Below, piece after piece: positions 13,686 through 51,166 of a DNA stretch of 64,000 bases (position 1 is its first letter; the number at the start of each line of letters is the position of its first letter). The stretch is from Desulfomonile tiedjei DSM 6799 (GTDB lineage: Bacteria > Desulfobacterota > Desulfomonilia > Desulfomonilales > Desulfomonilaceae): positions 5,522,001-5,586,000 of the forward strand of contig NC_018025.1 of assembly GCF_000266945.1 (NCBI RefSeq), read 5' to 3'. The translations under genes were made by a program, and so were the position numbers. The notes below the pieces were generated by a model. That model was given only the letters and a program-made list of their open reading frames with translations, was not told the origin of the DNA and did not search any database.

Positions 13686-16600
13686 CTATTTGTGCCGGTA
13701 GTCCAATGCTGCGCGTACGGCGGCAAGAATCTGTTTGAAATTGTATGGCTTGGAGACGAATCCGACCGCACCGAGTTCCAGAATCTCCCTTCCTTGATTG
13801 GCCGGGGAATATCCGCTCGCGATGAGCACCTTCACATCCGGATTCACCTTCAAGAGCTCTTCCAGACACTCCAAGCCACTCATATCAGGCATCACGAGAT
13901 CGAGAATCACGAGTGAGACGCCTTCCCATATTTCCCGATATATCCGGAGTGCTTCCTGTCCGGAACCTGCTGTCAATACATTGTACCCTGCCTCATTGAG
14001 AAGCTCTTTTCCCAGGTTCCTGATCGATTCCTCATCGTCAATCATGAGGAGCGTTTCTGAACCGAATGCCGGCATCTGTTGAGTAGTCTCGGCGAAAGAC
14101 TCGAATTGCTCTTTGAGTAACGGAAAATAAAGTTTGAAAACTGTGCCCACTTCGGGCTCGCTGGAGCACGTAATATGTCCGAGATGGCTTTTCACAATAC
14201 CGAATACGATGGACAATCCTAATCCCGTTCCTTCGCCGGGCTGTTTTGTCGTGAAAAACGGCTCGAAAACACGGTCGAGAACGTCCTTGTCCATCCCTTT
14301 ACCCGTGTCGGAGACCATGAGCATCACGTACTTGCCGGGTTTCGTCTCCGGGCGAGTGCGGCAGTAGTCGCGATCGAGGTCTACTGTACGGGTTTCCAGT
14401 ACGAAATTTCCCCCCTTAGGCATTGCTTGTTTTGCATTGACCGCAAGATTGAGCACAATCTGTTCTATCTGAGTAGGGTCTGCCTGGATCATGACTGGAT
14501 TTTCGGCCAACTGCAGCTTTACCGCAATATTCTTCGGCATCGTACTGCGCAGAAGGTCTTCCATGAAGCGCAATTCCTGGTTCAGGTTTACCGGACGAAG
14601 CTTTGTCTCGACTTTTCGACTGAAGGTGAGAATGCGCTGAACGACATCACTTCCTCTTTTGGCTGCAGTCCTGATTGCCAGTATTCGTTGATAATCCGAC
14701 TCTGCTTTATTCTTTCCGAGCAAAAGCAAGTCTGCGTATCCGAGCACTATCTGCAGGAGATTGTTGAAATCGTGCGCCAAACCTCCTGCAAGCGTTCCGA
14801 TTGCCTCCATTTTCGAAGCCTGCCGGAGTTGCTCTTCCAGATGTCGACGTTCCGTCACGTCCCGGAGATGTACGATGACTCCTTCAATTTCACCACTCGA
14901 CTCCACTACTAAAGGAAAGGTGCACACATCGAGCCAACCGGTAATACTATTTGCCGGCCCCCCTTTGGGAATGACAAAGGAAGTGGCTTGACCTGTTTTC
15001 AAGGTCTGCAGAGCCGGGCAGGATGGGCATACCTCATCAATACCCTGATATGCTTCGTGGCATTTTTTTCCAATCAAAGGCTCATCATGTTTGTACCATT
15101 TCTGCATGGTAGCGTTTGTACGAATGATTCGCAGATCTTTGTCCATGATACTGAGCCCGTCCTGAATGCAGGAGAATACGCTTGCAAGAAACCGTTCACG
15201 TTCCTGAAGAGCCTTTTCGCCTTGGATACGGTAGGTAATGTCCTCACAGCTTACAATCTGATCTCCCGTAGAGAGCTGCACAGGAATGAAGTGGATCAGC
15301 TTGTCAGTTCCATCCTTGCAGCGTACCTTGAAGGTTCTCGGGCGCTGTTCTCCTGTCGCACCCTTCCTCATATCCTGCATCCATGACGCAATCACCTGCT
15401 TGCGATAAGCTGACTCCGGAAACGCTTTCCGCAGCCACTCTCGGCCGTTTGGCACTTCCTGCAGGTCGTACCCGAAGAGCTCTTTGAATTTGGGATTCAC
15501 ATAGGCGAGGTCGTTGGATTGAGATAGCATCATAAGCGCGAAGGGAGCATTATCGACAAGAATCTGGAATTTCTTGCGCTCGAGATCAAGTGCAGTTTCC
15601 ACGTGTTTTCGACCGCTAATATCTTTCATGATACCGAGCACGCGAAATACGGAGCCGCTCTCGTCTTTTTGGCAAAGACCTTTATCTTCTATCCAAATAT
15701 AGGTGCCATCCTTACGTTTGAATCGATAATCGATCTGGAAACTGACACCTCTCGCCACGGCTCTCTCAAATGCGGCAACGGCTTCGAAGCGGTCTTCGGG
15801 ATGTATCAGCTTTCTCCACCCGCGAGTATCCGAGACCAATTCTTGGATCGTGTAGCCTGTTGTGGCTTCGATTGCTCCTGACCATTTGACTTTTCCCGTT
15901 GCAGGATCGTATTCGTAAATGAGTTGCCCGGTTTGTTCGGTAACAATGCTATACAGTTCCTGGCTTTCATTCAGTCTGTCCTGAACAAGTCTGCGGTCTG
16001 TCACATCTCTGGCTATTCCGTGTATTCCAATCGGTTTGCCCTCCTTCAACATCAAACGGCTGGTAATTTCCATCCACACGGGTTTACCTGATTTCGATCG
16101 GACGAGAATTTCGTAGGGCCCGGTACATTGGATTCCCTGCTCAACTTTGAGACGAAGATTCTCCCGAACAAGCGGCAGAGATGAAGGTGCAATGAAATCT
16201 TGATATCTGGATTTGAGGAACTCCTCCCGTTCATAACCGAGAATGCGGGTTATCGCGTCATTTACCGATAAATAGTTGCCTTTAAGATCGTGAGTGTAGA
16301 TGACGTCATTTGCATTTTCAAACAGGTCTTTGTAGCGCCTTTGACTTTTCTTCAGCTCATCTTCAGCAAGTCTACGATCCGTAATATTCCTGGATATCGC
16401 TTTGAATCCTATGATTCGATCCGTCTCGAACAACAATTGGACGTTTTGCCCCAGCCACATGATTTTACCGCTTCGATCGATCACGGGCACTTCATAATAA
16501 GTCGTGGCCTTTCTCTTCGCGAACTGAGTTGAATAGAATTTTTCGGCTCTCTTCCGGTAAGCAGGATGGACCAGATCGAAAAATCGTGTCCCCAACAACT

Positions 16601-17195
16601 CTTCAGCGGTACATCCTATTAATTTGAGACCGGGAGGATTTACGAATGTGAAGCATCCTTTTATGTCCGTCGTTACAATGATGTCGCTAACGTGAGCTAC
16701 AAATTGTTCAAATCTGGTTTGGCTTTCAGCGAGAGCCCGTTCCGCTTTCTCCCGTTCTTCAATTGCTTTCTTGACTACTTTTCGGGCATGTTCTTTTTCC
16801 GATGCAAGACTATCGATTACCAACAGAACGAAATTTCGCTTCTTTTGAGAAAATCGTCTGCCAGTTAAATCCACCCGCATTTCACGATCGGCGATTCTGA
16901 GATGTGCTTTGCATGTACGTATCTTGCCGTCGCTTATTATGTGTTCGAGCATATTTTGCACGAGGGAAGATTCTGAAGGATCTGGAAAAAGGTTTGAGAA
17001 GGGAAGCCCCCGCAATTTCGCAAGTTGCGATCCGAGCGATTTACAGGCTGGATTGACTGTGTTTACGGTGAAATTTGCATTGAGCAGAATGGTAGGAACA
17101 GGTAATATTCGGGCCCATTCACGAAAAGTGAAGGGTTCTTCGTCCTGCAGCGCGGTTCCGAGGTCCCCCTCAAAAGGCATGTTGTTTCCGGTCAA
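13686..17195 (-). CDS. Multi-PAS hybrid sensor histidine kinase
   Basis: A 1169-residue, apparently cytoplasmic signalling kinase without membrane segments. About six PAS/PAC modules occupy residues 20-790; repeated cues include FTFVNPPGLKLIGCTAEELL, YLSVNDAITRILGYEREEF and YIWIEDKGLCQKD. A HisKA domain follows, with H-box LAGGLAHDFNN (about 800-810). The ATPase domain shows the N box (LNLAVNAKQAM), G1 (VSDTGKGMD), F box (VFEPFFTTK) and G2 (GTGLGLSIV). The C-terminal receiver has the acidic pair IDDE and phosphoacceptor in VILDLVMPD. The CPSCPALQT stretch in the last PAS could bind a cofactor. Start is TTG at 17195 or ATG at 17180, the latter with GGAA six bases before it. No partner regulator is adjacent; the divergent neighbour is the cNMP/AAA+/ferredoxin fusion. 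Confidence 0.92.
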   Translation of the reverse strand: MTGNNMPFEGDLGTALQDEEPFTFREWARILPVPTILLNANFTVNTVNPACKSLGSQLAKLRGLPFSNLFPDPSESSLVQNMLEHIISDGKIRTCKAHLRIADREMRVDLTGRRFSQKKRNFVLLVIDSLASEKEHARKVVKKAIEEREKAERALAESQTRFEQFVAHVSDIIVTTDIKGCFTFVNPPGLKLIGCTAEELLGTRFFDLVHPAYRKRAEKFYSTQFAKRKATTYYEVPVIDRSGKIMWLGQNVQLLFETDRIIGFKAISRNITDRRLAEDELKKSQRRYKDLFENANDVIYTHDLKGNYLSVNDAITRILGYEREEFLKSRYQDFIAPSSLPLVRENLRLKVEQGIQCTGPYEILVRSKSGKPVWMEITSRLMLKEGKPIGIHGIARDVTDRRLVQDRLNESQELYSIVTEQTGQLIYEYDPATGKVKWSGAIEATTGYTIQELVSDTRGWRKLIHPEDRFEAVAAFERAVARGVSFQIDYRFKRKDGTYIWIEDKGLCQKDESGSVFRVLGIMKDISGRKHVETALDLERKKFQILVDNAPFALMMLSQSNDLAYVNPKFKELFGYDLQEVPNGREWLRKAFPESAYRKQVIASWMQDMRKGATGEQRPRTFKVRCKDGTDKLIHFIPVQLSTGDQIVSCEDITYRIQGEKALQERERFLASVFSCIQDGLSIMDKDLRIIRTNATMQKWYKHDEPLIGKKCHEAYQGIDEVCPSCPALQTLKTGQATSFVIPKGGPANSITGWLDVCTFPLVVESSGEIEGVIVHLRDVTERRHLEEQLRQASKMEAIGTLAGGLAHDFNNLLQIVLGYADLLLLGKNKAESDYQRILAIRTAAKRGSDVVQRILTFSRKVETKLRPVNLNQELRFMEDLLRSTMPKNIAVKLQLAENPVMIQADPTQIEQIVLNLAVNAKQAMPKGGNFVLETRTVDLDRDYCRTRPETKPGKYVMLMVSDTGKGMDKDVLDRVFEPFFTTKQPGEGTGLGLSIVFGIVKSHLGHITCSSEPEVGTVFKLYFPLLKEQFESFAETTQQMPAFGSETLLMIDDEESIRNLGKELLNEAGYNVLTAGSGQEALRIYREIWEGVSLVILDLVMPDMSGLECLEELLKVNPDVKVLIASGYSPANQGREILELGAVGFVSKPYNFKQILAAVRAALDYRHK

Positions 17196-17761
17196 ATCTT
17201 CCAGATCAGCCTCTGTTGAATTATAAAGTATGGATTCTGATAAAGCTGTTGATTCGGAAAAATCGATTACTATGATGCTGAGAACTTAATTCCTCTGTTT
17301 TGTACCGAAATGTCAAGGATAAAGTGACGCACAATGTAACCGTTCAGTCACGCGGGGTAGACAAGATCTTCTCCTGTAACCATGATATCACTGACTTCCA
17401 AAATCCCCCTAACCCCCATATGCTAACTTATCGTGTTTTTGGTCGTTTGTTCCGGAGGAACAGTCTGACAATAGGCCGGCGATTCATCGCCGGTTAAGGA
17501 AAAACCTAATGATTTTCGAGTCCCGGAGGGACGGCTGATACACAAATTCCCGGCAATGAATTACCGGGCTATTTTCTTTAGTCCCTACGGGTCAAAGAAT
17601 TACGACAAAGTTAGCGCCTATAAGGGAAGGGGGGATTTTTCCCACGCATAACTAAATGGAGACGATCGTCACGTTTATCGTCTTCAGGTTCGCGAGATAT
17701 TTTGGTATTATTCCATGGACGACTGATCCTGTGACCCTCTCTAGGACGGAGCCCTCAAATT
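17196..17761. other. Divergent intergenic region with short palindromic repeats
   Basis: Between the kinase and the fusion gene. It must hold both promoters, but none stands out. About 17450-17600 carries REP-like hairpins: CCGGCGA/TCGCCGG (17476-17493), then CCCGGCAA..TTACCGGG near 17550, and GTCCCGGAGGGAC. Confidence 0.45.
17450..17600. repeat. REP-like palindrome cluster
   Basis: Three short hairpins within 150 bases: CCGGCGA-TTCA-TCGCCGG at 17476-17493, GTCCC-GGA-GGGAC at about 17520 and CCCGGCAA-TGAA-TTACCGGG at about 17549-17568. They share loop style (TTCA/TGAA) and probably belong to one family of extragenic palindromes. Confidence 0.55.
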
Positions 17762-20395
17762 ATGACGAAGGCATCCGGAAACGACCAAATTCCTGCAGAA
17801 ATTTTGCGAATAATCCCTCCGGCATTCCGGCTGTTGGTCCAGGAAAAGAACGGCCTACGGGATTTTCCGGCTGGCGAGACCATTCTTGGCCCTGGGAAGC
17901 ACAATCACGAAATTCTCTTGTTGCTTTCAGGGGAGGCGAGTGTCGTCTTACGCGATGACGATGGTCAGCGCATCTCTGTAGACACATTGGGACCCGGAGA
18001 TGTATTCGGGGAGATTCACTTCTTCACCGGTATTCCCTGGAACTCGGATTCGGAGCTCGTTGCGGATGAATTCTGCCGTGCTCTGGTGATAAGTGAGCAG
18101 GATTTCGAGCAGACAATGCGAACAGATCCGGATTTTTCGGTATCGCTTGTTAAGAATCTGGTTCGCAAGGTCATGCGGCTCGACCGTTCTATTTTGAAGA
18201 TGAAATTGAGAAGGCGCGCTTTACAGAATCTTATTAGTCAAAGAGATCATATATTTCAGGATTTTGTGACGGGCAATTACATTCAGAAGCGACTGGCATC
18301 TCGTGCAGAGGAATTTGCGCATTCAGACGGTCCTGTAATAATTATCGGCGAGACAGGCGTAGGAAAAGAGGTGCTCGCGTACAACATTTTCAGCTTAAGC
18401 CATCACTGTAAGGAGGTTTTTCTCAAAGTCGACTTGCTCTCGACCCTGGACAGTCGATCCGCGGACGTAACAAACGAATCGAATAAATCCGAACAAGAGA
18501 TGACTGAAGCACAAATCAGACTCTTTTTCGGATACGAAGAACCTAGCGGAGATGGGGGCACGAAGGAGATCCCCGGATATTTTGAGCTTTCCGAAGATGG
18601 CACCCTGCTGGTACGGGGAATCGAACGGCTTACCGCGGTGACGCAGATGAAACTGTTGGAATCCGTCGCCACAGAGACTTTCCGTCGTCACGGAAGCATG
18701 CGCCTGCAAAAAGCAAAGGTCAGGTTGATCGCGACAACGAGGCTCGATCCGTCTCAGATCACCCTTGAAAGGCATCCGCTTATTTACGCGTTATTGGATC
18801 GCGCACTTACCATTTCTCCACTGCGCACCAGGCGCAAAGAGATCCCGGAGCTGGTAAATCATTACATCAAAAAATACAGCCTGGAAATTGGTAAAGAGCG
18901 TCCGAAGCTTCCAAAAGAGACTCTGAAAGCCCTGGTGAATTACTCCTGGCCCGGAAACCATCTGGAACTGGCCACGACTTTGAAACGGGCAATCCTGGTC
19001 GCCGCGGGCGGTATCATTCATCCTCATGACATCTATTTCCATCTGAAGAAGATTGAGGGGAGTGGGCGGTTCAATCTTCTGAGATTCCCCCGAATTCGCC
19101 AGACGCTTACCAGTCCTTTGTTTCCTGCTGTTTTACAGAGTGCTGCAACCCCGCTGTTCTGCATTCTGCTGATAATGCTTTTTCTCGGCCCCAGCGATCC
19201 GCTCAAAAATCCTGCTGCACTGTTCAGTTGGGCTCTGGGATGGCCCATTCTCATGATCGCGGCCTTTCTCTTCGCGCGCTTCTGGTGCTCGGTTTGTCCC
19301 ATAGGTACCGTAGGCGAACTTGCCAAGAAGGTGTTCTCCCTGGAAAAACCGTTTCCTGTTTTCCTGAAACATCACAGTGATTTCTTAATGGCAGGGGCTG
19401 CTCTTGCAGTAATTTGGTTCGAGGCTGTGACGGACATCAGGAATTCTCCACTAATTCTTGCACTCCTTCTCGTTACCATGTTGGCCTCTGCAGTAGTAAT
19501 CTCGATGATTTTCGAACGACAGTCGTGGTGTCTCTATTTGTGCGGACTGGGTGGAATGGCCGGAATTTTTGCCAAAATATCTATGGTGGAGCTGAGAGCC
19601 GATCGAAACGTCTGTATTTCGCAATGCGTGACGAACGAATGTTTTGTAGGGACCAGCACTTCGGAAGGGTGCCCATTTGGACAAGCCGGCCCGAGATTGC
19701 ATTCAAACAGATTGTGCAAACTCTGTGCTTCATGCCTCAAGAATTGCCCTCATGGTGGAATAAATTTGAATCTGCGGATACCGGGTCAGGAACTCTGGGA
19801 AGAACGAAATTCAAATACCGGCACGTCGTTTCTGGTAGTAGGACTCATTGGCGGCCTCTTTAGTGAGATGGGTCGTAGAATGCCGTTATACGACTGGTTT
19901 GCAGGCTTCGTTCCGGGTCCCGATATTCTTCATTTCACTATCTTCTTTATAGCAAGCCTGATTTTTGTAAACCTCGTGGTAATCGCTGCATCTCTGGCCT
20001 CGAGCCGGGTATACCGAGAGACTCTGACGGAGAATTACACTCGCTTCGGACTTGCATTGTTGCCACTGGCATTTGCATGCTTCTTGGCATTCCATATCTA
20101 CTATTTGCTGAATTTGGGAGTTCAACTCCCCATCCTGGTGAGCACCTATCTGGACTTTTCGGTTTTCAGGCAATTGGTCATTAAAGTTGTTCCAGAGACT
20201 ACGTTTCTCATTCAGCAGATTCTCATCTGGTGTGGTTTCGCAGGGACCCTCGTTGTTGCATTCAAGTTGGGGAACGGAATGCCACAGGAAAACACAAAGA
20301 AGATGTTTGGATCGGTTCCTCACATGCTGGCGGCATTGATCTTTGCGTTACTCCAGATCCAGGCCATATGGTTTTACTTCTTTGGGACCCAATAG
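17762..20395 (+). CDS. Fusion: cNMP-binding domain, degenerate sigma54-type AAA+ domain and membrane polyferredoxin
   Basis: An 877-residue protein with an unusual order. Residues about 20-135 form a cyclic-nucleotide-binding (CRP-type) beta barrel (ILLLLSGEASVVL, LGPGDVFGEIHFF). Residues about 175-420 follow the sigma54-activator AAA+ fold with Walker A GETGVGKE. However, the GAFTGA loop is absent (EEPSGDGGTKE in its place) and the Walker B acids are lost (LLVRGIERL for the usual FLDEIGDM). Residues 440-877 are a membrane module of about nine helices. It carries NapH/NosR-type motifs: WCSVCPIG at about 508, a Cys cluster near 620-640 (CISQCVTNEC) and a 4Fe-4S motif CKLCASCLKNCP at about 653. 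No helix-turn-helix is present. It should anchor in the inner membrane and pass electrons or sense redox; it cannot be a classical sigma54 activator. Start ATG with GGAG about ten bases upstream. Confidence 0.88.
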   Translation: MTKASGNDQIPAEILRIIPPAFRLLVQEKNGLRDFPAGETILGPGKHNHEILLLLSGEASVVLRDDDGQRISVDTLGPGDVFGEIHFFTGIPWNSDSELVADEFCRALVISEQDFEQTMRTDPDFSVSLVKNLVRKVMRLDRSILKMKLRRRALQNLISQRDHIFQDFVTGNYIQKRLASRAEEFAHSDGPVIIIGETGVGKEVLAYNIFSLSHHCKEVFLKVDLLSTLDSRSADVTNESNKSEQEMTEAQIRLFFGYEEPSGDGGTKEIPGYFELSEDGTLLVRGIERLTAVTQMKLLESVATETFRRHGSMRLQKAKVRLIATTRLDPSQITLERHPLIYALLDRALTISPLRTRRKEIPELVNHYIKKYSLEIGKERPKLPKETLKALVNYSWPGNHLELATTLKRAILVAAGGIIHPHDIYFHLKKIEGSGRFNLLRFPRIRQTLTSPLFPAVLQSAATPLFCILLIMLFLGPSDPLKNPAALFSWALGWPILMIAAFLFARFWCSVCPIGTVGELAKKVFSLEKPFPVFLKHHSDFLMAGAALAVIWFEAVTDIRNSPLILALLLVTMLASAVVISMIFERQSWCLYLCGLGGMAGIFAKISMVELRADRNVCISQCVTNECFVGTSTSEGCPFGQAGPRLHSNRLCKLCASCLKNCPHGGINLNLRIPGQELWEERNSNTGTSFLVVGLIGGLFSEMGRRMPLYDWFAGFVPGPDILHFTIFFIASLIFVNLVVIAASLASSRVYRETLTENYTRFGLALLPLAFACFLAFHIYYLLNLGVQLPILVSTYLDFSVFRQLVIKVVPETTFLIQQILIWCGFAGTLVVAFKLGNGMPQENTKKMFGSVPHMLAALIFALLQIQAIWFYFFGTQ

Positions 20396-20981: not shown

Positions 20982-22650
20982 TGTCTCAAAACTCCATTTT
21001 GGGCTCGCGATTTGCCAAGAGATGTACTAGAAAGGAGAGGAATTCAACAACCACGAGGCTGTCATGGGCAAACAGATCCGGGCCGATTACGAACAGATCT
21101 TGATGTTTCCGCCGTCAGTGGAAGACTGGGTGGCTAAGGATCACCCGGCGCGCTTTATCCGAGATTTCGTGGATTCCTTGGATCTGTCCGAGTTGGGAAT
21201 CGAGGTTCCCGACAGCGATACAGGACGTCCTCCGTATGCGCCAGATCTTCTGTTGAAGGTGTGGCTTTTCGGATACTTCAATCGGATCAGGAGTACCCGT
21301 AAGCTTGAGAAGGGTTGCCTTGAGAATATGGGGCTGATTTGGCTGACGGGGATGAATGCTCCGGATCATAATTCCTTATGGCGATTCTTCAAGGCGAACA
21401 GGAAATCATTGAGGCATCTGTTCAGACAGTCGATTCGTGTTGCTCTGAAGGCCGATCTGATCGGTCTAGCTCTTCATGCCGTGGACGGGACCAAGATCCA
21501 AGCCGTCTCATCCAACGACAAGGCTCGGGGTCGTGAGCACCTGGAGAGGTTCTGGAAAGTGTTTCGGAGAGATTGGACCGCACGATTGCCGATGCGATGA
21601 CTGAGATAGAGAGAGCCGAGCGGGAAGAGACCGGTGAGTATCGCCTTCCGCAGTCCATGCAAGACGGATTGAAACGGAAACAGCGGATACAAGAGGCTCT
21701 GAAGGAGTTGGATGAATCGGACAAGAAGTCAGTTCACCCTTCGGAACCGGAAGCTCGCTTTATGAAGAATCGCCGGACCAAAGACTTGTCGTACAACGCT
21801 CAGGCGGTTGCCGACCAAAAGAGCGGCCTTATCGTGGCCGCAGATGTGGTCACGGATGGGGCCGACAACGGGCAATTGGTCCCCATGCTCGACAAGGTGA
21901 AAGAGAATCTGGGCGCTGTGGCAGAGGAAAATGTGGCGGACGGGGGATATTTTTCCTCAGGGCAGATAGGTCTGGCCCATGAGCGAGAATACGGCATTCT
22001 TATCGGGAAATCGTCAGGGGAAATTGTTTCCGAGAGAGGTGCGGATGAGGATCTCTATCACCGATCCCGGTTCGTCTTTGATCAGGAGCGTGATTGCTTC
22101 ATATGCCCTGAAGGGCGCTTGTTGCCTTTTCATCAGCGGAAAATTAACGGCAAGAACCACAATGAGGTTCGCAGGTATCACTGCAAGGATTTTCTAACGT
22201 GTCCCAATCGCTGGAAATGCTCCAAGAGCAAGAACGGACGCCTCATAGACCTCAGCGTTTACGAGGCGGCCCTAGAACGACACCGCAGCAAGAGGGAAAA
22301 CCAGAGAACAAAGAGCGCCTGAAGACTCGAAAGAAGATTATCGAGCCACCGTTTGCCTGGATCAAGAGCGCATTAAGCTTTCGGCGATGGACCGTGGCCG
22401 GAATCGACAACGTAAAGGCCCAGTGGGACCTTATTTGCACGACCATAAATCTCAGGAAGCTCTACCACCATTGGGTATCCGGCGAGGTGGCATTCACGTA
22501 AGCAGCCGGAGGGAGACCATGACCTTATAACGGACAGTACACTCGGATCGAACCTCGCCTGATCTTCACTTGACGGGACTGCTTTTTTCCCAGAAGCAGG
22601 TCCTCCCGTCCGGCTTGCGTGATTCGCCGCAGTGCGCAGGTTTTGAGACG
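20982..22650 (+). mobile_element. IS1182-family insertion sequence, about 1.67 kb, probably inactive
   Basis: Bounded by inverted ends TGTCTCAAAAC (from 20982) and GTTTTGAGACG (to 22650). Flanks are the arms CCACGGGT (20965-20972) and ACCCATGG (22660-22667), each nine bases away. The element encodes one transposase split over three frames. Its right flank (CTTTCTGACACCCATGGC) matches the right flank of the MITE at 52868-53070, so both sit at the same type of site. Confidence 0.8.
21064..22501 (+). pseudogene. IS1182-type transposase with two frameshifts
   Basis: The N-terminal part (21064-21600) has the typical start (MGKQIRADYEQILMFPPSVE) and first catalytic Asp region (HAVDGTKIQAV). The frame must then shift by -1 near 21540-21565 to continue as VLESVSERLDRTIADAMTEI. 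This second part (to about 22322) holds the central DDE region (VVTDGADNGQLVPML, ENVADGGYFSS) and a Cys-bearing CPNRWKC zinc-like segment. A second -1 shift near 22285-22310 is needed to reach the C-terminal block IEPPFAWIKSALSFRRW with the catalytic Glu region. No poly-A slippery run stands at either point, so decay is more likely than programmed frameshifting. Confidence 0.85.
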
Positions 22651-40245: not shown

Positions 40246-40489
40246 CCATGCAGAAGTGACGTTTGATGGCTGAACAGAACCCCATACAGCCTTCGTGAAA
40301 TTTTGAGAGAGGCGGTCTCCACTCATACAATGTTATGCAATGCGCACGATGATCTCACGGCCAACAATGTGAGAATCCCGGGCGGGACCGAGAGGAAGAA
40401 CACTGAAGACGAAAGATTTCTCAAGTTCTGCAGAAACGCCCGGATCTGATTATTCGGAAAACAATCATCCGGAAGACCTTTCGGAAGTG

Positions 40490-40795
40490 ATGGATTTTTC
40501 CAGTTACGACCTGCGAACAACCATCCGTCTGATCGTGCTCAGCGGTGAATCAAGAAGAATAGACGTGAAGAAAGGTAGCCGAGAAGGCGCCATTTATGTA
40601 CGAGAGGGCGAGATATCCAGGGCCGTTGCCGGAACTCTCCTTGGTGACGAGGCGTTCTTCGAGATTTTATCCTGGAAGAACGAGACTCATACCGATTCTC
40701 TTAATACAGAGGATATGGGCAAAAATGTCCGAATACCGACCACAATCTTGGTCGACCTGCTGAAAGGTCGATCTATAAGCACGGATCGTGATTAG
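40490..40795 (+). CDS. Small DUF4388/PATAN-like protein
   Basis: About 101 residues. The pattern GAIYVREGEISRAVAGTLLGDEAFFEILSW (in parts: GAIYVREGEIS, LLGDEAFFEIL) is the DUF4388/PATAN domain, found in PatA-type regulators of motility and gliding. The ATG at 40490 has a GGAAG nearby. The frame stays open upstream to 40373 with coding-like residues. A CTG at 40403 has AGAGGAAG just before it, so a longer form cannot be excluded. The next gene contains the same domain. It opens the chemosensory operon. Confidence 0.7.
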   Translation: MDFSSYDLRTTIRLIVLSGESRRIDVKKGSREGAIYVREGEISRAVAGTLLGDEAFFEILSWKNETHTDSLNTEDMGKNVRIPTTILVDLLKGRSISTDRD

Positions 40796-40863
40796 AGTGC
40801 CTGTTTCTCCACGTAGTAGAAATATGCCGTACCCGCAATGCCTCTTTGTGAAGGAGTTTCCTG

Positions 40864-42684
40864 TTGACGGAGCGCAGGGTCCTCATAATAGAACCTGAAG
40901 ACACCCTCCTGAAAATATTCCAGGAATATTTTTCACAATTAGGGGGTGGCTACCTGATTCAACAGGTTCATACTGTTTCAGCCGCACTGGATCTGGTTCA
41001 TCAGAATTCGATCGAGGTGGCTGTTCTGGATCATCAGGGGCCTGGGCGGCTTGATTGTATAGAGTTCCTCCGCGTTTTGAGAGACCACAAATGTTACACG
41101 CAAGTTATTGTCATAGCTGACGAACAGTTCAAGCCTCTCATGCTTCCGGTATTGTCACTCGGCGCTACCAATTTCCTTTTGAAGCCCCCCGACGCGAGCC
41201 TGTGTGAATTGGTGTTTCACATGCTTCAACCGCAGCAGGGATTCATCGGCCGAGTTGTGTCGATGAAACTCGAAGATGTGATTCAAATGTTCTGTTATCG
41301 AAAGGAAAGCACACTTCTTTGGGTATTCCATGAACGCGCGAAAGGAATGATATACGTTCACGACGGAGGCATCATTCACGCGGAGTGTGACAGTCTCAGT
41401 GGAGTAGAGGCATTTTATGAGATTCTCGGTTGGGAGGGTGGAGAGTTTCTATCCCAGGTGGCTCTTTCCGTACCCGAGAGAACTCTCTTCATGGATTGGC
41501 AGAGTCTGCTCATGGAGGGCATGCGACAAAAAGATGAGATTCGTCATGCCCTTGGCCCTATTTCGGAGATACCCGGTTCGGCCGCAAAAGGGAACAACTC
41601 CCGCCCGGGTGCTATGGAATCTGTTCAAGAAAGCACCGGACCTGCCAAGCGGGTCATGATCGTCGATGACTCTCGGTTCATTCGGAAAATAGTGCAAGAA
41701 ATACTGCAGTCGGATCCAGGGGTAATCGTGGCTGGATATGCGACGAATGGACAGGAAGCTCTCGCCAAAATTGACGAGTTGAAACCCGATTTGATTCTCC
41801 TGGACTGGGACATGCCGGTCATGAAGGGAAGCACCACATTGATGCACATCATGATCCGCAGCCCTTGTCCCGTCGTTATATTGAGCGGGTTCGTCGGCGG
41901 AGTGGGTGCCAATCCGTTCGACTTATTATGTCTGGGAGGAGTGGATTTCCTGAGAAAACCTCAGAACAACTGGCGAATGGATGGGCGTGCCGACGATCTT
42001 GTACGACGCATAAAAGAGGCAAGCCTGATCAAGTTTGAACGCATACGGCGTGTGAAAATCCCGCCGGCGATCCAGAAAGAGGTGTCTGAAGAAGCCAAAG
42101 GAAATCCCAGCAATTTCTTGACAATTGTATGGGCTTCTACGGGAGGCTCAACCGATTTGATCCGAACCATACCTCTGTTACCGGAAGATCTACCGACATG
42201 TTTAGTGGTTTTGCATGATATGCAGCAAGAGGCAATAGGCGCATTTATCGATTACCTCCAAAGACGGAGCAGAATAAGAGTTCGGCCTCTTGTATCGGGT
42301 TTAAGCCTGCTAGACGGGACCTGTTACATACATCCGTCTACAGTTCCGGTGGAACTTATGAAGAACGGAAATCAATTTGTCTTGAAAGTCGTTCCGGAAC
42401 TCAGGGGCATACCTGTGCTCGATCATTTCATGGTTTCAGCATCCAAAAGTTTGGGTGGTAATCTTGTGTCGGTAATGCTATCAGGCGGCTCGGACAACGG
42501 AATTGAAGGTTTGCGAGCCGTGAAACAGGTACAAGGAATTACCGTGGTCCAGGATCCCATGTCCAGCATGGACCCGAGAATGGCCGAAGCAGTCCTCCAG
42601 GAAGGGCTTGCGGACTACTCGTGCCCGGCGGATTCTCTGGTAGAGACACTGACGAATATAATCCGGCTGGCGGTGACGTCCTGA
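40864..42684 (+). CDS. REC-DUF4388-REC-CheB fusion, catalytically complete methylesterase
   Basis: A 606-residue protein. Residues 1-120 are a receiver-like domain whose acidic pocket is altered (IIEPED; Asp in AVLDHQG kept). About 125-230 is DUF4388 (GMIYVHDGGIIHAECD, GVEAFYEILGWEGGEF). About 258-385 is a full receiver (IVDDSRFIRK, LDWDMPVM). About 415-606 is the CheB methylesterase domain with Ser in ASTGGS, His in VVLHDM and Asp in LSGGSDNG. It would remove receptor methyl esters under phosphorylation control, with DUF4388 as a protein-contact module. Start TTG at 40864 with AAGGAG upstream. Confidence 0.88.
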   Translation: MTERRVLIIEPEDTLLKIFQEYFSQLGGGYLIQQVHTVSAALDLVHQNSIEVAVLDHQGPGRLDCIEFLRVLRDHKCYTQVIVIADEQFKPLMLPVLSLGATNFLLKPPDASLCELVFHMLQPQQGFIGRVVSMKLEDVIQMFCYRKESTLLWVFHERAKGMIYVHDGGIIHAECDSLSGVEAFYEILGWEGGEFLSQVALSVPERTLFMDWQSLLMEGMRQKDEIRHALGPISEIPGSAAKGNNSRPGAMESVQESTGPAKRVMIVDDSRFIRKIVQEILQSDPGVIVAGYATNGQEALAKIDELKPDLILLDWDMPVMKGSTTLMHIMIRSPCPVVILSGFVGGVGANPFDLLCLGGVDFLRKPQNNWRMDGRADDLVRRIKEASLIKFERIRRVKIPPAIQKEVSEEAKGNPSNFLTIVWASTGGSTDLIRTIPLLPEDLPTCLVVLHDMQQEAIGAFIDYLQRRSRIRVRPLVSGLSLLDGTCYIHPSTVPVELMKNGNQFVLKVVPELRGIPVLDHFMVSASKSLGGNLVSVMLSGGSDNGIEGLRAVKQVQGITVVQDPMSSMDPRMAEAVLQEGLADYSCPADSLVETLTNIIRLAVTS

Positions 42685-42712
42685 CGAGGTACTCACGAGG
42701 AGGAAAATTCCC

Positions 42713-43264
42713 ATGAACGGTAGGGACCAGTATAGAAAGACAGCTCCGGAATCAGAGGAAAACGTTCAGATGATCAGTTTTTCCATTGGATCTGAACGTT
42801 TTGGTGTACCCATTCTGGTGGTTCAAGAGATCATCATGATGTCGACAATTACGGAAATTCCCAATTCCCCGGACTTTGTCGAGGGCGTTATCAATCTCCG
42901 GGGAAATATCATCCCGGTAATTGATCTGAGAAAACGACTTCGCCTGAGAGGATATGCTAAAGAAGTTTCAGCCACCCCGAAACCGGGAACCCGTATACTT
43001 GTGGTGGAGATAGAAGGCAATGTCACGGGTTTTATAGTGGACTCGGTTGCCAAAGTGATCACGATTCCCGCTTCCAGGATTGCCCCTCCGCCGGACATAA
43101 TCGTTGCAGGGGTCCAAAGCCTGTACATCAGTGGCGTGGTCCACCTGGATCAAGGGATTCTTGTCATACTCGATTTCAGAAGAATTCTTTCCATGGAGGA
43201 AAGGGATGCGCTGGAAGGTGTAGCGCGAGCCGTTCCTCAAGCAGTGGAAAGCATAACACGATAA
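42713..43264 (+). CDS. cheW: CheW adaptor protein
   Basis: A 183-residue CheW that links receptors to CheA. The family signatures FSIGSERFGVPILVVQEI, EGVINLRGNIIPVIDLRKRL and the closing GILVILDFRRIL are present. The protein is about 20-30 residues longer than many CheW proteins, with extra residues at both ends. GAGGAGG stands nine bases before the ATG. Confidence 0.95.
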   Translation: MNGRDQYRKTAPESEENVQMISFSIGSERFGVPILVVQEIIMMSTITEIPNSPDFVEGVINLRGNIIPVIDLRKRLRLRGYAKEVSATPKPGTRILVVEIEGNVTGFIVDSVAKVITIPASRIAPPPDIIVAGVQSLYISGVVHLDQGILVILDFRRILSMEERDALEGVARAVPQAVESITR

Positions 43265-43331
43265 AGAGACTGCCGTTTGTCATGATAATCGGTTTTCCCG
43301 GTGATCGAGATCACCCCTAGGAGGAAGGGAC

Positions 43332-45746
43332 ATGAAGGTATTAAGATCATTTTCTCTCGGAGGGAGCCTCAGGAACAAACTTCTGATTTGGTTCCTTTTG
43401 ATTGCTATTGTACCTTTTACTGTATCCGGCTTGATTGGTTACTGGACCATTACTACTGAAGCGGAGAATTCGGCCAAACGCGAGCTGAAAGCTATTGCCG
43501 AGTCTGCCGCAACATCACTGAACGTTTTCATGAACGACCGCGTCACGGACGTGTTGGTCTGGGCCGACCAGAGGCTTATGAAAGAGGCGCTCGAGGTTGC
43601 TGAAGTCCGGGAGGACGCCTCGGAAACAATGCGTGAAATGGTCAAGCTCTATGGATCGTATATAGCGCTGTTCCTTGTCGACACACGGGGTAACTGTATC
43701 GCATCGAGTTGGCCGGCTTCCGTCGGATCGGACTTGTCCGGTCTGGAAACCTTCAAGAAAGCTAAGACGGGCAAGCTGGATATTACTGATGCACATTTCG
43801 ACAAACTGGCAGAACAGATAGATCCGAAATCCAAAGGGTGGACACTCGGAATCGCTGCTCCCGTTAAAATCGGTGGCAATGTAACAGGGGTTGTTTTGGC
43901 GTTTCTGAATTGGGCACCGATCGAGCAAATCGTTCTCAGTACAAAAGTGGGAGGCTCCGGTTACATTTGGGTTACCGACAAGAAACCTACCCCTATAGTT
44001 CACCCGTCTCGAGATATTTACGGCTTGCCTGTCGGAGGGCCGAAAATCGGTCTCCCGACACTTGAAAAGGCAATAAAGAGTAAAGAGACTGAGCACACGT
44101 ATTCGTTCACAAACGTCAAAACCGGCAAATTGGACGATAAATTTGTCGGTGTAGCGTATCCGGGAGCATATGGAAACTTTCCCGGCCTGGGGTGGATAAT
44201 CGGAGCCGGCGCTGATAAATCGGAACTTATGTACTATTTGCCGATCATCGTAAGAAATAACACCATCATTGCCGTCATCGTTCTCATCGCGGTCTTCATG
44301 ATGGCCCTTTTCGTTGCGGCTACAATTTCCCGGCCGATCACCAGATTGGCGGGTACTATGGCCCAGGTAGGCGACAATCTCGATTTGACCTTGCGTGCTC
44401 CCGTGGGATCGAAAGATGAAACGGGTAGAGCCGCCGAGACGTTCAACGGACTGCTGGAACGGCTTCAAGGAGCATTTTCCACGGTGCTTGACGGTGTCTC
44501 CAGGGTGCGGCAATCGGCCGGAAACGTGAACCAGATCACGCAAAACATCGTGGTGAACGCAACCGCTCAGGCCGAACGAGCTCGAAACGTTCTCGACAGA
44601 ATCGCGTCCATGGGAGAAACCGCGGCGCAGGTTTCGACGAATGCTCAAGATACCCTGCGTTCTGCAACAGTCACGCATGATTCGCTCCAGAAGATGTCAG
44701 GCGAAATGGAAGGCATGGCACAAAGTGCCGGTGAGCAGGACCTTCAGAGCCGTGAAGGTGAGAACATCGTTGATGCTATGGGCGCAACTGCACGTGAGGT
44801 TGCCGGAAAGGCCGGCGAGCAGTATTCCGCAGCTCAGGAGACAGCCGAAGCCGTCAAGCGTATGGTGCAAACCATCGATGAAATGGCCAAAAGCGCAGTT
44901 GAAGCAGCACGTCAATCTGATATCACTGACCGATATGCCCGTGAAGGAGGTCTGGCCGTCGACAAAGTGGTCGAAGGTATGAAGGCCATTGCAGAGAGCT
45001 CCGAGCAGATCAACGAAATCATGGTCGTTATTTCGTCCATTGCAGAACAGACCAACCTTCTCGCTTTGAACGCTGCAATCGAAGCTGCTCGTGCAGGTGA
45101 ACACGGAAAAGGTTTTGCCGTCGTTGCGGATGAAGTCCGAAAGCTCGCAGAAAGAACGGCTGAATCTACCAACGAAATCGCAGACCTCATTAAAGCCAGT
45201 AATAAGAGAGTCGAGGAAGGAGAGCGGCTGTCCGCCACAAGTCGTGAAGCTCTGAACCAGATTCAGGACGCTGTGGCCAGAACCAATACGCTCATTTCGG
45301 GTATTACAGAAGGTACACTTCGAGAAGCGGACGATGCGGCCGGCGTTCAAAAAGCTATGGAACGACTGACAGGTCTGGCCCAGGACATTCTCGGACTCAC
45401 AGGAGAGCAGGGCAAACGTAGAGAGCGCGCTGCTTCCATTATGGGTGAAATTCGTCAACTCAGCCGAAACGTTCTGGAACGTGCCGGAAGCCAGGTGGAA
45501 GCATCTACTTCAGTTACGCAGGAAATGGAAGGTGTTACGTCCCGAGCTGAAAACATTACCAAGTTGACCGGTCTTCAGACGGAGCGTGCTGCGGTGCTGA
45601 AACAGATCATGGCCGATATGTCAGACGTTGCAACCATGAACGCGAAAGGAGCGGCTGGCGCATCTCAGACAACTGAGGAACTCGCCCGAGTTGCAGAAGA
45701 ACTGGGGCAATTGGTTGAACAGTTCCGAATTAGCAGAGAAATTTAA
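43332..45746 (+). CDS. Methyl-accepting chemotaxis protein with dCache-type sensor
   Basis: An 804-residue transmembrane receptor. A first helix ([20 protein letters not shown], about 18-37) leads to a large periplasmic region of about 265 residues with Cache-like features ([19 protein letters not shown]). The second helix ([19 protein letters not shown], about 315-333) precedes a HAMP domain ([19 protein letters not shown]). The signalling hairpin is fully conserved ([20 protein letters not shown]). AGGAGGAAGG lies before the ATG. The C-terminus lacks a CheR-docking pentapeptide of the NWETF type (it ends QFRISREI). Ligand unknown. Confidence 0.95.
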
Positions 45747-45794
45747 CTGACATCTTTGTTATTTTTGACACGCGGGTGTTTTGAGAGGTGAGGA

Positions 45795-46160
45795 ATGTCT
45801 ATGCGGGTCCTAGTAGTCGATGACTCCGGATTCATGCGAAAGAGAATAATTGAAGAGTTGCGTTCTCACGGTCACGCGATAGTAGGAGAGGCAAAGAGCG
45901 GTGATGAGGCGGTCGAGCTCTACAGGACCCTTAAGCCCGATCTGGTGACGATGGACATCACAATGAGGGAAAAGGACGGGATAACCGCGGCCAAAGAAAT
46001 TCTTGGAGAAGATCCCAAGGCCAATATCCTGTTCTTGACCATTCTGAATGACGACAAGTACAAATCGGAAGCTGAGAGACTGGGTGCCAAAGGGTTCGTC
46101 AACAAGACCGACACGCCTTCTATCACCAAAGCGATCAAGGAAATCGAAGAGAAGCAGTAG
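45795..46160 (+). CDS. cheY: CheY-like single-domain response regulator
   Basis: A 121-residue receiver. It has the acidic pair (VVDDSGFMRK), phosphoacceptor Asp in VTMDITM, Thr in LFLTIL and Lys in FVNKTD. It should be phosphorylated by the CheA encoded two genes later and set motor bias or another output. GAGG just upstream of the ATG. Confidence 0.93.
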   Translation: MSMRVLVVDDSGFMRKRIIEELRSHGHAIVGEAKSGDEAVELYRTLKPDLVTMDITMREKDGITAAKEILGEDPKANILFLTILNDDKYKSEAERLGAKGFVNKTDTPSITKAIKEIEEKQ

Positions 46161-46165
46161 ACTCT

Positions 46166-46879
46166 ATGGCAATCCATCAACTCAGATCCGGGGCATCTTC
46201 CGCGAAAAACGTGGATGAAGCAGGCGTAAAATCGCCCTTTCGTGTAATAAGCCGATATAAGCTACTGGCGTTGTTTTGCCTCTTGGCTTTGTTGGCTATG
46301 GGACTAAATGTGGGGCTTATCGTGGATTTGAACGGAGAAATAGGGAGAATCCAGGAGTTGCTCGGACCCAATGCCGGCGATACTTCGGGAGGAAACCTGC
46401 TTCGGGAGATCGAATCCTTGAGAGCGCACAAAATACGGATGATAGTGCTCCTGGGAGCACTCGTCATATGCTTCGGGACCATCATCTATCTTTTCTATAA
46501 AAGAATAGCCGCTCCGCTGCAAGAGCTCACCGGAGCAGCAAGACGCATATCGCGTGGAGATCTGAGTGCATCCGCTCTGGTACATTCGAAGGACGATTTT
46601 ACCGAAGTGGCACAGGTCATCAATGACATGGCGGCAAACTTCCAGGAAGTCCTTCTGTTGCTGGGCACGACAGTAGGCCATTCGCAAGTCGTTCTCGAGA
46701 ACATGGAATTGCGCTTGGGTCAAGAGCACACGGCAGACAATTTGGACGAACTCCGCAACCATATCCGCATTATTAAGAAGGATCTTGAACTGCTTAGTGG
46801 TGTAGTGCGGGAATTCGAGTACTATCAGACGAGATTTGACGGACGTAAAGTGGTCCCGACAATCCCCCTGACGGACTGA
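46166..46879 (+). CDS. HAMP-domain membrane protein of the chemosensory operon
   Basis: A 237-residue protein with two membrane helices (LLALFCLLALLAMGLNVGLIV, about 32-52, and IRMIVLLGALVICFGTIIYLF, about 91-111). A short periplasmic loop of some 40 residues lies between. A HAMP domain (RIAAPLQELTGAARRISRGD) and a coiled-coil tail without a kinase or methyl-accepting hairpin follow. It may act as a helper receptor or scaffold for the array. It starts six bases after cheY. Confidence 0.85.
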   Translation: MAIHQLRSGASSAKNVDEAGVKSPFRVISRYKLLALFCLLALLAMGLNVGLIVDLNGEIGRIQELLGPNAGDTSGGNLLREIESLRAHKIRMIVLLGALVICFGTIIYLFYKRIAAPLQELTGAARRISRGDLSASALVHSKDDFTEVAQVINDMAANFQEVLLLLGTTVGHSQVVLENMELRLGQEHTADNLDELRNHIRIIKKDLELLSGVVREFEYYQTRFDGRKVVPTIPLTD

Positions 46880-46937
46880 GTGATTTGAGACGTCCTCTCG
46901 TGGCGAGAGCCACTGTGCCGGGTGGAAAGGAAAAAAG

Positions 46938-49900
46938 ATGATCGACACTGAAATTCTTCAGGATTACAGCAGTGAGGCACGCGAGCTTCTGGACGAGATG
47001 GAGAACAGTCTCATGCGTCTCGAGAAAGAAGGAGCCAGTCCCGAGCTGCTGAACAATATCTTTCGCGCCGTGCATTGTATCAAAGGTTCTGCCGAGTATA
47101 TCGGGCTTGAACGGAGCAGCACCCTTACTCATGGTGTGGAAAATTTGCTGGATCGCATGCGGGAAGGCCTTCTCAGTCCGACACCTGAAATCCTGGAATT
47201 CTTGTTCAGGGCAAAAGACCTGATTCTGACTTTGATCGGTGAGGTCTCCGAGACGCAGGAGGAGAAAACCCCTATTTCCTCGGTCATGAGTGAGCTGGAA
47301 TCGTTTCTCGAGGGCAAACCCGCGCCCATTCCTTCAATATCTGAACCTGCTCCGCAAGAGGAAGAAGCCCCCCCTGCAGAGACGACTCTATCTCAAGAAC
47401 CTGAAGAGTTGAGTCCCGTGGCAGCCGCAGAAGAACTCGATTCCGCTCCGGAAGAAGAGTTTATAGAACCGTTCGAAGCTCAGGAAGACCAGACGATTCA
47501 CCAGTTCGAGCCTACGGAAGAACTTGCGCAGAAGATGGCAAGTGAGATAGACGAAGAAGAAGATTGGGAAGTGGCGCCGGACTCATTCCCTGAAAACGTA
47601 TCTGAAATCGTAGATGAAAACGCTGAAGAACGACTCGCTGCAGCTCTCGAAGAGCCGGAGCAGCCCACTGCGGATATTGAAAGCACTGTTCCACATCTCC
47701 TGAACATTTCTTTGTATCTTGACGATCTCCAGGATGGGCTGAGCCCTGATAACGTGGTTTCGTCACTGTTGGAAACGCTTGAAATTCTATCGGAATCTTA
47801 CCGTGCGTTACAGCTATCCGAGGCTGTTGAGACTCTTCAGTCGCTGGAAGCAGCGGTTCTCGCCATCGATCTGGACAAAGACGCATTGAGCCACGAGGAA
47901 ATCGATTCGCTGCGCAACATTCTTTACAGCTTAAGATCCATTTATCCGGAAGATTTGATGGTCCCCATTCGTGAATCTCTGGGACGAACAGAAAAACCCG
48001 AAGCGGATTCAGCTCCTCCTGTCACTGAAAAGCCTGTGACTCCGCCTACTTATCCGCTTGCAGCGGAACTGGAAAACGTTCCGGGAATCACTCATGAAGC
48101 CATCGCGTCCCTCTGCGAGGCAGGATATTCCACTGTAAGTCACTTGTATCAAGCGGATAGGGATAAGCTGCAAAATCTGCCTGCAATGACAGCGGAGTTG
48201 GCAACTTCCATTCTCATTCATATAGGCAGAGAAACCATTATCGCGCAACCCAAAGACATACAGAGGAAGAAAGATTCTCTCCTGGCGGATATTGATGACG
48301 AATTGTTGAGTGAATTCCAAGGATTATTTGCCGATTCAGGGCAGACAATCCTCCAGAGCACGAACAAATTTTATCCATACGGTGGAAAAGCCGCCGATTT
48401 GCTTCAGGAGTTGGATTCCATCGGAGAAGAAGCAGATCGAGAGATTATGGAGATATTTCTCTCTTACGGCTGGGAAATTCTCGATAAGCTGAAACCCTAT
48501 GTAGCGAAGGTGAAGAGCGGGAAAGTCACGGGTGCGGATTTGGATGCCTGTGCCGAGTTGATCAAAGCGATCAAATCTTCATCGACTTACATGGATTACC
48601 AGAGTCTCGCTGGATTCCTGGACGAATGGTACGAATGGACGATCTATAACGTGCAGAAAGTAGACGCGGAACCGCTGGAAGATCTCGATTTCATGGATGA
48701 AAGCCTTTCAAAATTCGAGGATTTCCTTGGCGGCTTGGACATGATCCTCCATCCTCCATCGTCACCGGAGTTGGTTCAGCCAAGAGCCGTACCGGAACCG
48801 ATTCCAGAACCCTGGGCCACGAGAATTCCCGAGGTAGCCACAGAACCTGTAGTCACTCAAACGTCTTTTTCACCTCCGGCAAGAACCGATCAATCCGGGC
48901 AGTTGATGAGCGATCCGGTCGCAGAAGTAGAGACAACAGCACCGGAACCGGTAATTACGGCAGAATTGGAAGGTCCGGTAGACGAAGCCCTGGTGCGAAC
49001 AGGTCAGGATGCTCAGGCAGGTCCGCTCGTCAGGACCATGCGAGTGGATTCAGCTAAGGTAGACGTTCTCCTCAATCAAGTGGGGGAACTGGTCGTCAAC
49101 CGTTCTTACGTAGAGCAACTCGCTACGGAATTGAAAAATTTCCAGCGAGAAATTGCTTCGAGAGGGGATTTCGGTAAAAAAGCGATTCAGCAGATCAAGG
49201 ACCTGACGCTGAAGGTGGGCGAGGCAAGCATCTCGTTAGGACGTGTTGCCACTGAGATTCAAGAAGGGGTCATGAAGCTGAGAATGCTTCCGGTCGGTCA
49301 GTTATTCAACCGAATGCCCAGACTGATTCGCGATCTTTCCCGAAGGGTGGGAAAGACGATTGATCTGGAAGTCCACGGCGGAGATACGGAAGTCGATAAG
49401 CGTGTTATAGAACAGATATACAATCCTCTTGTTCACCTTATCAGAAACGCCGTCGATCACGGCATCGAGGATTCGGATACGCGAAAGAAGTTGGGAAAGA
49501 AAGAGCAGGGCTCTATCGTTCTAAGCGCGTATTCTCAAGGAAACCAGGTCGTGATTGATGTGGAAGATGACGGAAGTGGCATCAATGCCGATTCGGTCCT
49601 GAAAAAAGCCCTGGAGAGCAAATTGATCAATCCTCAGGATGCGGAAAGCGTTTCATCGCAGGAGGTCTACAATTTGCTTTTTGTTCCGGGTTTTTCCACG
49701 AGCACAAAAGTGACGCGGACATCGGGTCGCGGCGTGGGAATGGACGTCGTGAAAAAAGATGTGGAAAAGATCAACGGACATGTGGAGATCGATTCCTGGA
49801 AAAATCGAGGCACTCGCATTTCGCTAAAAATTCCGCTCACACTGGCAATCATTCAGACGCTCTTGATACGTTCCGGAATGCATGTATTTGCAATTCCTTT

Positions 49901-50360
49901 GACGGCTGTTCGCGAAATCATTCAAGTTGCGTCTCACGAAATAACCACCATCGAAGGATTTGAAGTCATCAAATTCAGACACGAGACCATTCCTGTGTTA
50001 CGGGTAGACGAAATCTTTAAACTTAAAGAACCGCAACCTGCCAACAATCCGAAGTTCCTCGTGCTTGCTTCTGCAGGATTGAAGTCGGTAGGATTTCTCG
50101 TTGAAGAGTTGATCGGCGAACAGGATGTTGTGATAAAGCCTCTCGCGGATCACGTCTTCAAGAGCCGCGGGCTTGCTGGGTCCACTATTCTGGGTGACGG
50201 CACTATAGCGCTGGTACTCGACGTCCTGGAAGTAATAGAGGATGTCATTACCAAACAGCGCCAGTTGGCCCAAGCCCATGCAGCAGCCAGAAACGCAAAA
50301 CTCGAACGTCGCGGCACACATTTTACCGTTCGAGATACCGCCATAAGAATGGACGTATAA
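46938..50360 (+). CDS. cheA: CheA histidine kinase with Hpt, helix-hairpin-helix-like and second degenerate Hpt regions
   Basis: An 1140-residue kinase. Residues 1-110 are an Hpt domain with phosphoacceptor His46 in RAVHCIKGSAEYIG. A Glu/Pro-rich linker spans about 125-250. About 376-425 resembles a helix-hairpin-helix pair (NVPGITHEAIASLCEAGYST then LQNLPAMTAELATSILIHIG). About 450-590 has Hpt-like helices but Lys in place of His (IKAIKSSSTYMDY). P3 dimerisation starts about 700 (VDVLLNQVGELVVNRS). The P4 ATPase has HLIRNAVDHGIED, VEDDGSGIN and TSGRGVGMDVV. The C-terminal P5 is CheW-like (AIPLTAVREII). It is much longer than Escherichia coli CheA (654). The gene sits in the operon between the HAMP protein and parA. 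Confidence 0.95.
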   Translation: MIDTEILQDYSSEARELLDEMENSLMRLEKEGASPELLNNIFRAVHCIKGSAEYIGLERSSTLTHGVENLLDRMREGLLSPTPEILEFLFRAKDLILTLIGEVSETQEEKTPISSVMSELESFLEGKPAPIPSISEPAPQEEEAPPAETTLSQEPEELSPVAAAEELDSAPEEEFIEPFEAQEDQTIHQFEPTEELAQKMASEIDEEEDWEVAPDSFPENVSEIVDENAEERLAAALEEPEQPTADIESTVPHLLNISLYLDDLQDGLSPDNVVSSLLETLEILSESYRALQLSEAVETLQSLEAAVLAIDLDKDALSHEEIDSLRNILYSLRSIYPEDLMVPIRESLGRTEKPEADSAPPVTEKPVTPPTYPLAAELENVPGITHEAIASLCEAGYSTVSHLYQADRDKLQNLPAMTAELATSILIHIGRETIIAQPKDIQRKKDSLLADIDDELLSEFQGLFADSGQTILQSTNKFYPYGGKAADLLQELDSIGEEADREIMEIFLSYGWEILDKLKPYVAKVKSGKVTGADLDACAELIKAIKSSSTYMDYQSLAGFLDEWYEWTIYNVQKVDAEPLEDLDFMDESLSKFEDFLGGLDMILHPPSSPELVQPRAVPEPIPEPWATRIPEVATEPVVTQTSFSPPARTDQSGQLMSDPVAEVETTAPEPVITAELEGPVDEALVRTGQDAQAGPLVRTMRVDSAKVDVLLNQVGELVVNRSYVEQLATELKNFQREIASRGDFGKKAIQQIKDLTLKVGEASISLGRVATEIQEGVMKLRMLPVGQLFNRMPRLIRDLSRRVGKTIDLEVHGGDTEVDKRVIEQIYNPLVHLIRNAVDHGIEDSDTRKKLGKKEQGSIVLSAYSQGNQVVIDVEDDGSGINADSVLKKALESKLINPQDAESVSSQEVYNLLFVPGFSTSTKVTRTSGRGVGMDVVKKDVEKINGHVEIDSWKNRGTRISLKIPLTLAIIQTLLIRSGMHVFAIPLTAVREIIQVASHEITTIEGFEVIKFRHETIPVLRVDEIFKLKEPQPANNPKFLVLASAGLKSVGFLVEELIGEQDVVIKPLADHVFKSRGLAGSTILGDGTIALVLDVLEVIEDVITKQRQLAQAHAAARNAKLERRGTHFTVRDTAIRMDV

Positions 50361-50375
50361 AGGGAGTCCAAATTC

Positions 50376-51164: not shown

Positions 51165-51166
51165 CT

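Follow-up and report, generated by a model that had tools for sequence, protein, structure and literature searches.

Positions 17762-20395 of the window (the whole 64,000-nucleotide stretch of Desulfomonile tiedjei DSM 6799 DNA that was analysed) contain a gene whose product combines parts of a transcription activator with a membrane redox protein. Two questions are raised by this locus, namely whether the gene is a genuine fusion and what an AAA+ domain of the sigma54-activator type does next to a membrane Fe-S module. The original prediction described a single frame encoding a cyclic nucleotide sensor, a degenerate AAA+ domain reused for nucleotide binding or oligomerisation, and a membrane 4Fe-4S module. 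The sequence observation on the fusion is confirmed, and there is good support for the predicted reuse of its AAA domain. No description of a sensor-AAA-Fe/S architecture was found in the open-access papers searched.

Structure of the fusion gene and its product

The frame at 17762-20395 (+) is open from end to end (0 internal stops) and encodes a protein of 877 aa. A probable ribosome binding site, the Shine-Dalgarno-like sequence AGGACGG at 17743-17749 (+), was recognized by eye 12 bp upstream. Pfam assigns a cNMP_binding domain to aa 33-122 (7.6e-17; 17858-18127, +), Sigma54_activat to aa 176-335 (6e-21), AAA_lid_14 to aa 355-431 (1e-15) and Fer4_5 (PF12801) to two stretches (31.9 bits against a cut-off of 22), which bears out the three predicted parts. 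The pseudo-AAA+ domain with its lid thus covers aa 176-431 (18287-19054, +), and the NapH-like module with about 8-9 transmembrane helices covers aa 436-872 (19067-20377, +; model pTM 0.83). A long helix or linker (aa 123-165; 18128-18256, +) lies where CRP has its dimerisation helix and may have a similar function; the model shows a helix at aa 123-158, partly at low confidence. The motifs GETGVGKE (aa 196-203), WCSVCPIG (aa 508-515) and CKLCASCLKNCP (aa 652-663), named from the letters alone, were all found where they had been placed.

The protein ends in the membrane module and, as had been noticed, no HTH or other DNA-binding domain was detected in it by Pfam. Pfam likewise detected no FMN-binding domain, the N-terminus being formed by the sensor and AAA parts, and the domain scan revealed no recognizable output domain besides the redox module in the fusion or its relatives. 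The structure predicted for the full-length fusion has a pTM of 0.55, and the packing of the domains is therefore not fixed by the model.

The fusion order is present at full or nearly full length in 16 of the 18 genomes of the family, MAGs among them, often in several copies. The genome studied here (6,527,027 bp in two contigs, the main one of 6,500,104 bp) carries four. A join of two genes by a frameshift or misassembly, named beforehand as the finding that would overturn the fusion, is excluded by this recurrence: the same frame appears in dozens of assemblies and in two complete cyanobacterial plasmids, nothing favouring an artefact was found, and the chance of one is negligible. One fusion copy of another genome (L070:7208-10064, genome G017) is split by a TGA and represents a pseudogene or an assembly error.

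The membrane Fe-S module

The best family match of the C-terminal half is NapH (TIGR02163, 3e-7). The module is considered a relative of NapH and not NapH itself because its score of 30 bits is far below the curated family cut-off of 213. It contains a CX2CP motif (C509-P513; 19286-19300, +), a CX3C motif (C590-C594; 19529-19543, +) and eight cysteines (C618-C662; 19613-19750, +) predicted to bind two [4Fe-4S] clusters. Both paired motifs and all eight cysteines are invariant in the 40 AAA-fused members, in which the first motif is CX2CP. Of the twelve cysteines, eleven are unchanged throughout the 65 aligned modules; the remaining one, C618, is found in all 40 AAA-fused forms. The transmembrane and Fe-S region (aa 436-700) is the most conserved part of the protein within the family: its mean pairwise identity is 62.5%, while the sensor reaches 41% and the AAA core 44%. 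Hydropathy places the sensor, the AAA domain and all of the cysteines on the predicted cytoplasmic side. The transmembrane histidines H778 and H854 were considered as haem ligands and rejected, since their alignment positions vary beyond the close family.

NapH/MauN (PF12801, TIGR02163) and NosR share with the fusion several transmembrane helices, two paired-cysteine motifs on the predicted cytoplasmic side and eight cysteines for two [4Fe-4S] clusters. The NapH family differs in its first motif (CX3CP instead of CX2CP), and the fusion has extra C-terminal transmembrane helices. RdhC/PceC proteins also have several transmembrane helices with similar paired-cysteine motifs, whereas the eight further cysteines are missing in RdhC. 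The N-terminal addition of NosR and RdhC is an extracytoplasmic FMN-binding domain, whereas that of the fusion is a cytoplasmic sensor with a pseudo-AAA domain. No convincing match to a solved structure was found for the membrane module in the PDB by sequence or fold; NapH and NosR are missing among the PDB matches, which does not count against a relationship with them. In the literature, NapH-like proteins are seen as Fe-S electron carriers that are linked to quinol and take electrons from it, and that have modular N-terminal additions (PMC8238504, PMC5928378). NosR and RdhC were initially called regulators and were later reconsidered as electron-transfer proteins (PMC5928378), a history that, by analogy, would advise caution in both directions when a regulator is weighed against an electron carrier.

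Decay and retention in the AAA+ domain

The 67 intact sigma54 AAA domains of this genome score 199-255 bits against PF00158. Of the four fusions, three reach only 77, 62 and 50 bits and one is under the detection limit, so that the term degenerate was apt. Motifs were compared across an alignment of 36 proteins, and again with 13 sequences from more distant relatives. The Walker B Asp-Glu pair and the GAFTGA loop, whose loss had been noted, and also the R-finger segment (FRxDLYYRL) are lost in every relative aligned. In the window protein, Walker A (GETGVGKE; 18347-18370, +) is kept, and the Walker B site GTLLVRGIE (aa 280-288; 18599-18625, +) has Arg285 in place of Asp and Gly286 in place of Glu; the stretch reads TLLVRG, compared with TVFLDE in a neighbouring true regulator. 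Within a representative family set of 24, Lys202 of the P-loop is kept in 23 and sensor II Arg355 and Arg357 in 24, and 23 have Arg or Lys at the position of the Walker B Asp. Two copies of the family are without the P-loop lysine. The AAA part of the predicted structure matches NtrC1 (1ny5; Z 24.1, 242 residues, rmsd 2.6).

The fusion therefore resembles bEBPs (the NtrC/NifA class, PF00158) in the AAA+ and lid fold, the order sensor-AAA-output and the retained P-loop and sensor II. It differs in the absence of Walker B acids, GAFTGA, R-fingers and a DNA-binding domain, with a membrane redox output instead. A few true bEBPs are also without a DNA-binding domain. By the motifs kept and lost, the AAA part is an exapted and presumably hydrolysis-dead bEBP module. 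In all likelihood it binds nucleotides or oligomerises as a transducer between the N-terminal sensors and a membrane electron-transfer output.

A membrane-anchored transcription regulator, either sigma54-dependent or acting with sigma70 in the manner of DhaR/TyrR, is implied by database annotations such as "nitrogen assimilation regulatory protein". One of the two annotated copies inspected bears this label and the other is called "cyclic nucleotide-binding domain-containing protein", both in a phylum without sigma54. The sequence and fold of the AAA part are indeed of the bEBP type, and there are bEBP-like regulators that lack GAFTGA and function with sigma70 (PMC3162934). Nevertheless, the window protein has no DNA-binding domain, every copy lacks GAFTGA, the Walker B acids and the R-fingers, and the fusion occurs in cyanobacteria, a phylum without sigma54; this explanation is disfavoured and very improbable.

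Sigma54 and its true activators were absent from all 29 cyanobacteria examined by Francke et al. 2011 (PMC3162934). The control genome of Synechococcus elongatus was matched by PF00158 and not by the sigma54 DNA-binding domain; this PF00158 match is not tied to the fusion, and the plasmid hosts are linked to the absence of sigma54 by belonging to the same phylum. The AAA domain of the cyanobacterial fusions would thus not serve sigma54, unless the Aulosira and Pseudanabaena hosts are exceptions. As the fusion occurs in cyanobacteria without sigma54, selection on it acts on a function different from sigma54 activation. This persistence, together with the retained fold and motifs and the specific losses, upholds the predicted reuse of a sigma54-activator domain. 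No sigma54 promoter was found upstream of the fusion gene; the window contains four one-mismatch sites (1.8 expected), none of them near the gene. The 67 intact activator domains of this genome, with one sigma54 gene found, constitute a large bEBP repertoire.

Phylogenetic analysis separates the fused AAA domains from 29 canonical domains and the neighbouring regulators (SH-aLRT 99). When the cyanobacterial copies and an LpxC fusion were added, a single clade was not rejected (p-AU 0.77). The fused domains are compatible with one clade separate from the canonical ones, and the evidence for a single origin is weak because of long branches in the tree. Derivation of the fused AAA from the neighbouring response regulator is not supported, since these regulators group among the canonical bEBPs.

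The LpxC fusion is a 715-aa protein of the same genome (L241:4813-6960, -; about 4707812-4709959 of contig G000:C1) composed of a receiver domain, a degenerate bEBP AAA domain and LpxC. It is a second enzyme-fused pseudo-AAA protein of this class. Like the window protein, it keeps the P-loop, has Arg for the Walker B Asp (LLLVRVDRL), has lost GAFTGA and ends in a non-DNA-binding output. It differs in having a receiver domain as the sensor and the LpxC deacetylase as the output, and it is placed with little certainty among the AAA domains of the tree.

The N-terminal sensor

The N-terminal part resembles CRP/FNR family sensors in that a long helix follows its cNMP_binding domain, and differs from them in lacking the phosphate-binding arginine and the DNA-binding winged helix. 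The cassette arginine that contacts the cyclic phosphate is absent from the window protein and from all 22 family members examined, so that the gating by a cyclic nucleotide that was originally proposed is not supported for this protein. A Pro-Arg at the cassette place is kept only in four distant relatives (L052, L188, L193 and L195), and the window fusion does not show the Glu with Arg-Ser/Thr typical of the CRP-class cassette. The signal sensed by the window copy is probably, to judge from these residues, not a cyclic nucleotide.

The N-terminal sensors vary among relatives (cNMP alone, cNMP with GAF domains, FHA with cNMP), while the AAA and redox modules are constant. This variation bears on the possibility that the sensor and AAA domains are only an inert oligomerisation cap keeping the Fe-S module together, with no signalling or nucleotide dependence. 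Such a scaffold would account for the erosion of catalytic and ligand-binding motifs in both soluble domains and for the two family copies without even the P-loop lysine. The swapping and addition of sensors would be unexpected for a mere scaffold, though, and the P-loop and sensor II are nearly invariant among fusion copies that are mostly only 40-60% identical to the window protein; a pure scaffold is accordingly unlikely.

Distribution and architectures

A search of genome contigs with the single protein as the query gave no matches, whereas an alignment used as the query found relatives. As a profile, the membrane module was detected in 65 of 395 Desulfobacterota genomes, and among the loci fetched it is joined to an AAA domain in 20 of these 65, from 11 families. 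The domain order sought as a check was thus present well beyond the home family: the fusion core occurs in 10 Desulfobacterota families besides that of Desulfomonile, in some cases with extra GAF or FHA sensors. The architectures include cNMP-AAA-Fe/S, cNMP-GAF(-GAF)-AAA-Fe/S, FHA-cNMP-AAA-Fe/S, cytochrome c-Fe/S and the module alone. Proteins of the cNMP-AAA-Fe/S type (904 and 897 aa) are also encoded on plasmids of the cyanobacteria Aulosira laxa and Pseudanabaena galeata.

The module was detected in 18 of 189 genomes in the phylum of a Myxococcales MAG (G420) and in 28 of 299 in the phylum of Rahnella (G421); the 14 loci fetched from these phyla contain no AAA-fused form. In three of nine proteins scanned from them, c-type cytochromes precede the module. 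Proteins of 880-990 aa from the phylum of Rahnella (L266, L267 and L269) carry the module after several c-type cytochrome domains, without AAA. No relative of the fusion was found on viral contigs.

Gene neighbours

The window copy is divergent from a gene (13686-17195, -) that encodes, according to the domain scan, a hybrid histidine kinase of 1169 aa with several PAS, HisKA, HATPase_c and REC domains. The same divergent pair occurs in a genome of the same genus (G001), with 56% kinase identity over 1150 aa. In a second paralogue group, the order histidine kinase, NtrC-type regulator, fusion is kept in seven genomes, an eighth having the regulator and a split fusion gene, and the regulator of this operon has intact GAFTGA and Walker B. 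A third group has the fusion gene before a polyprenyl synthetase gene, a neighbour that is only suggestive of a tie to quinone synthesis. The two cyanobacterial plasmid genes are located 6-18 bp upstream of a cysteine synthase gene. Neighbours thus vary by lineage (kinase with response regulator, polyprenyl synthetase, cysteine synthase), and no partner is common to all.

These neighbours point to the main rival of an electron-transfer role, a membrane redox sensor that signals to the two-component system encoded next to it. The Fe-S/quinone module would then be the input, and its redox state would alter the pseudo-AAA+ head, which would bind a regulatory partner. It might, for instance, assemble with the true sigma54 activator (the response regulator) of the same operon into mixed rings that are inactive, or contact the adjacent histidine kinase. 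The conserved operon order, the intact activator and the divergent pair of the window copy all agree with such a sensor, as does the presence of a kinase within 5 kb of three of the four copies here, to be read against 115 HATPase_c matches in 6.5 Mb. On the other hand, the AAA domain of the neighbouring regulator is not the closest to the fused one, no kinase gene adjoins the fusion in other lineages and paralogue groups, and mixed rings cannot be the general function in cyanobacteria, which have neither sigma54 nor its activators (PMC3162934). A redox sensor is possible, though less likely than an electron-transfer role.

On the cyanobacterial plasmids (L243 and L244), the fusion and cysK genes are situated amid genes for DsrE, rhodanese-like, Rieske, MerR, ArsP permease, Rrf2 and Tll0287-like proteins and katG. 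The gene sets differ between the two plasmids and look like a sulfur/thiol redox island.

Proposed function

There is about an even chance that the fusion transfers electrons at the membrane under the control of a signal. Its cytoplasmic sensor at the N-terminus, CRP-like in the window copy and with added GAF or FHA domains in relatives, would act via the bEBP-derived AAA+ domain, which would no longer hydrolyse ATP or contact sigma54. This domain may bind ATP, form rings or both, and as a transducer would control the NapH-type module. The latter would move electrons between the quinone pool and a carrier in the cytoplasm, through the two predicted cytoplasmic [4Fe-4S] clusters and the CX2-3C motifs. 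The bEBP layout of sensor, AAA and output would be retained, with a redox output in place of the DNA-binding one. The redox relay of the original prediction stands to this extent, as a reading of the domain order, and its cyclic-nucleotide gate is not supported for this copy.

Swappable sensors, the constant AAA and redox modules, the invariant cysteines and the lack of any other output domain support the electron-transfer role at the level of sequence. Against it, no electron-transfer partner consistently adjoins the gene, and the kinase and regulator neighbours fit a signalling role equally well. More tentatively, and with somewhat less than an even chance, the class may extend across Desulfobacterota and Cyanobacteria as a hydrolysis-dead bEBP sensor-AAA+ switch rewired from DNA and sigma54 to a quinone-linked Fe-S module, in which nucleotide charge and other signals would directly set electron flux without transcription. 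If true, a transcription-activator switch would have become a post-translational gate on membrane electron flow, and the bEBP AAA+ fold would be separable from both sigma54 and ATP hydrolysis. The labels given to such proteins in databases would be affected as well. Testable examples are provided by sulfate reducers with several paralogues per genome and by the cyanobacterial plasmid operons with cysteine synthase.

Other features of the window

Transposase-like open reading frames broken into two frames are present at 21064-22322; their N-terminal sequence recurs close to a different paralogue of the fusion (L033:1-1408). The region 40487-52246 contains a chemosensory-looking gene set with MCP-like, CheW-like, CheA-like (1140 aa), receiver and CheB-like products, as judged by their N-terminal sequences only.
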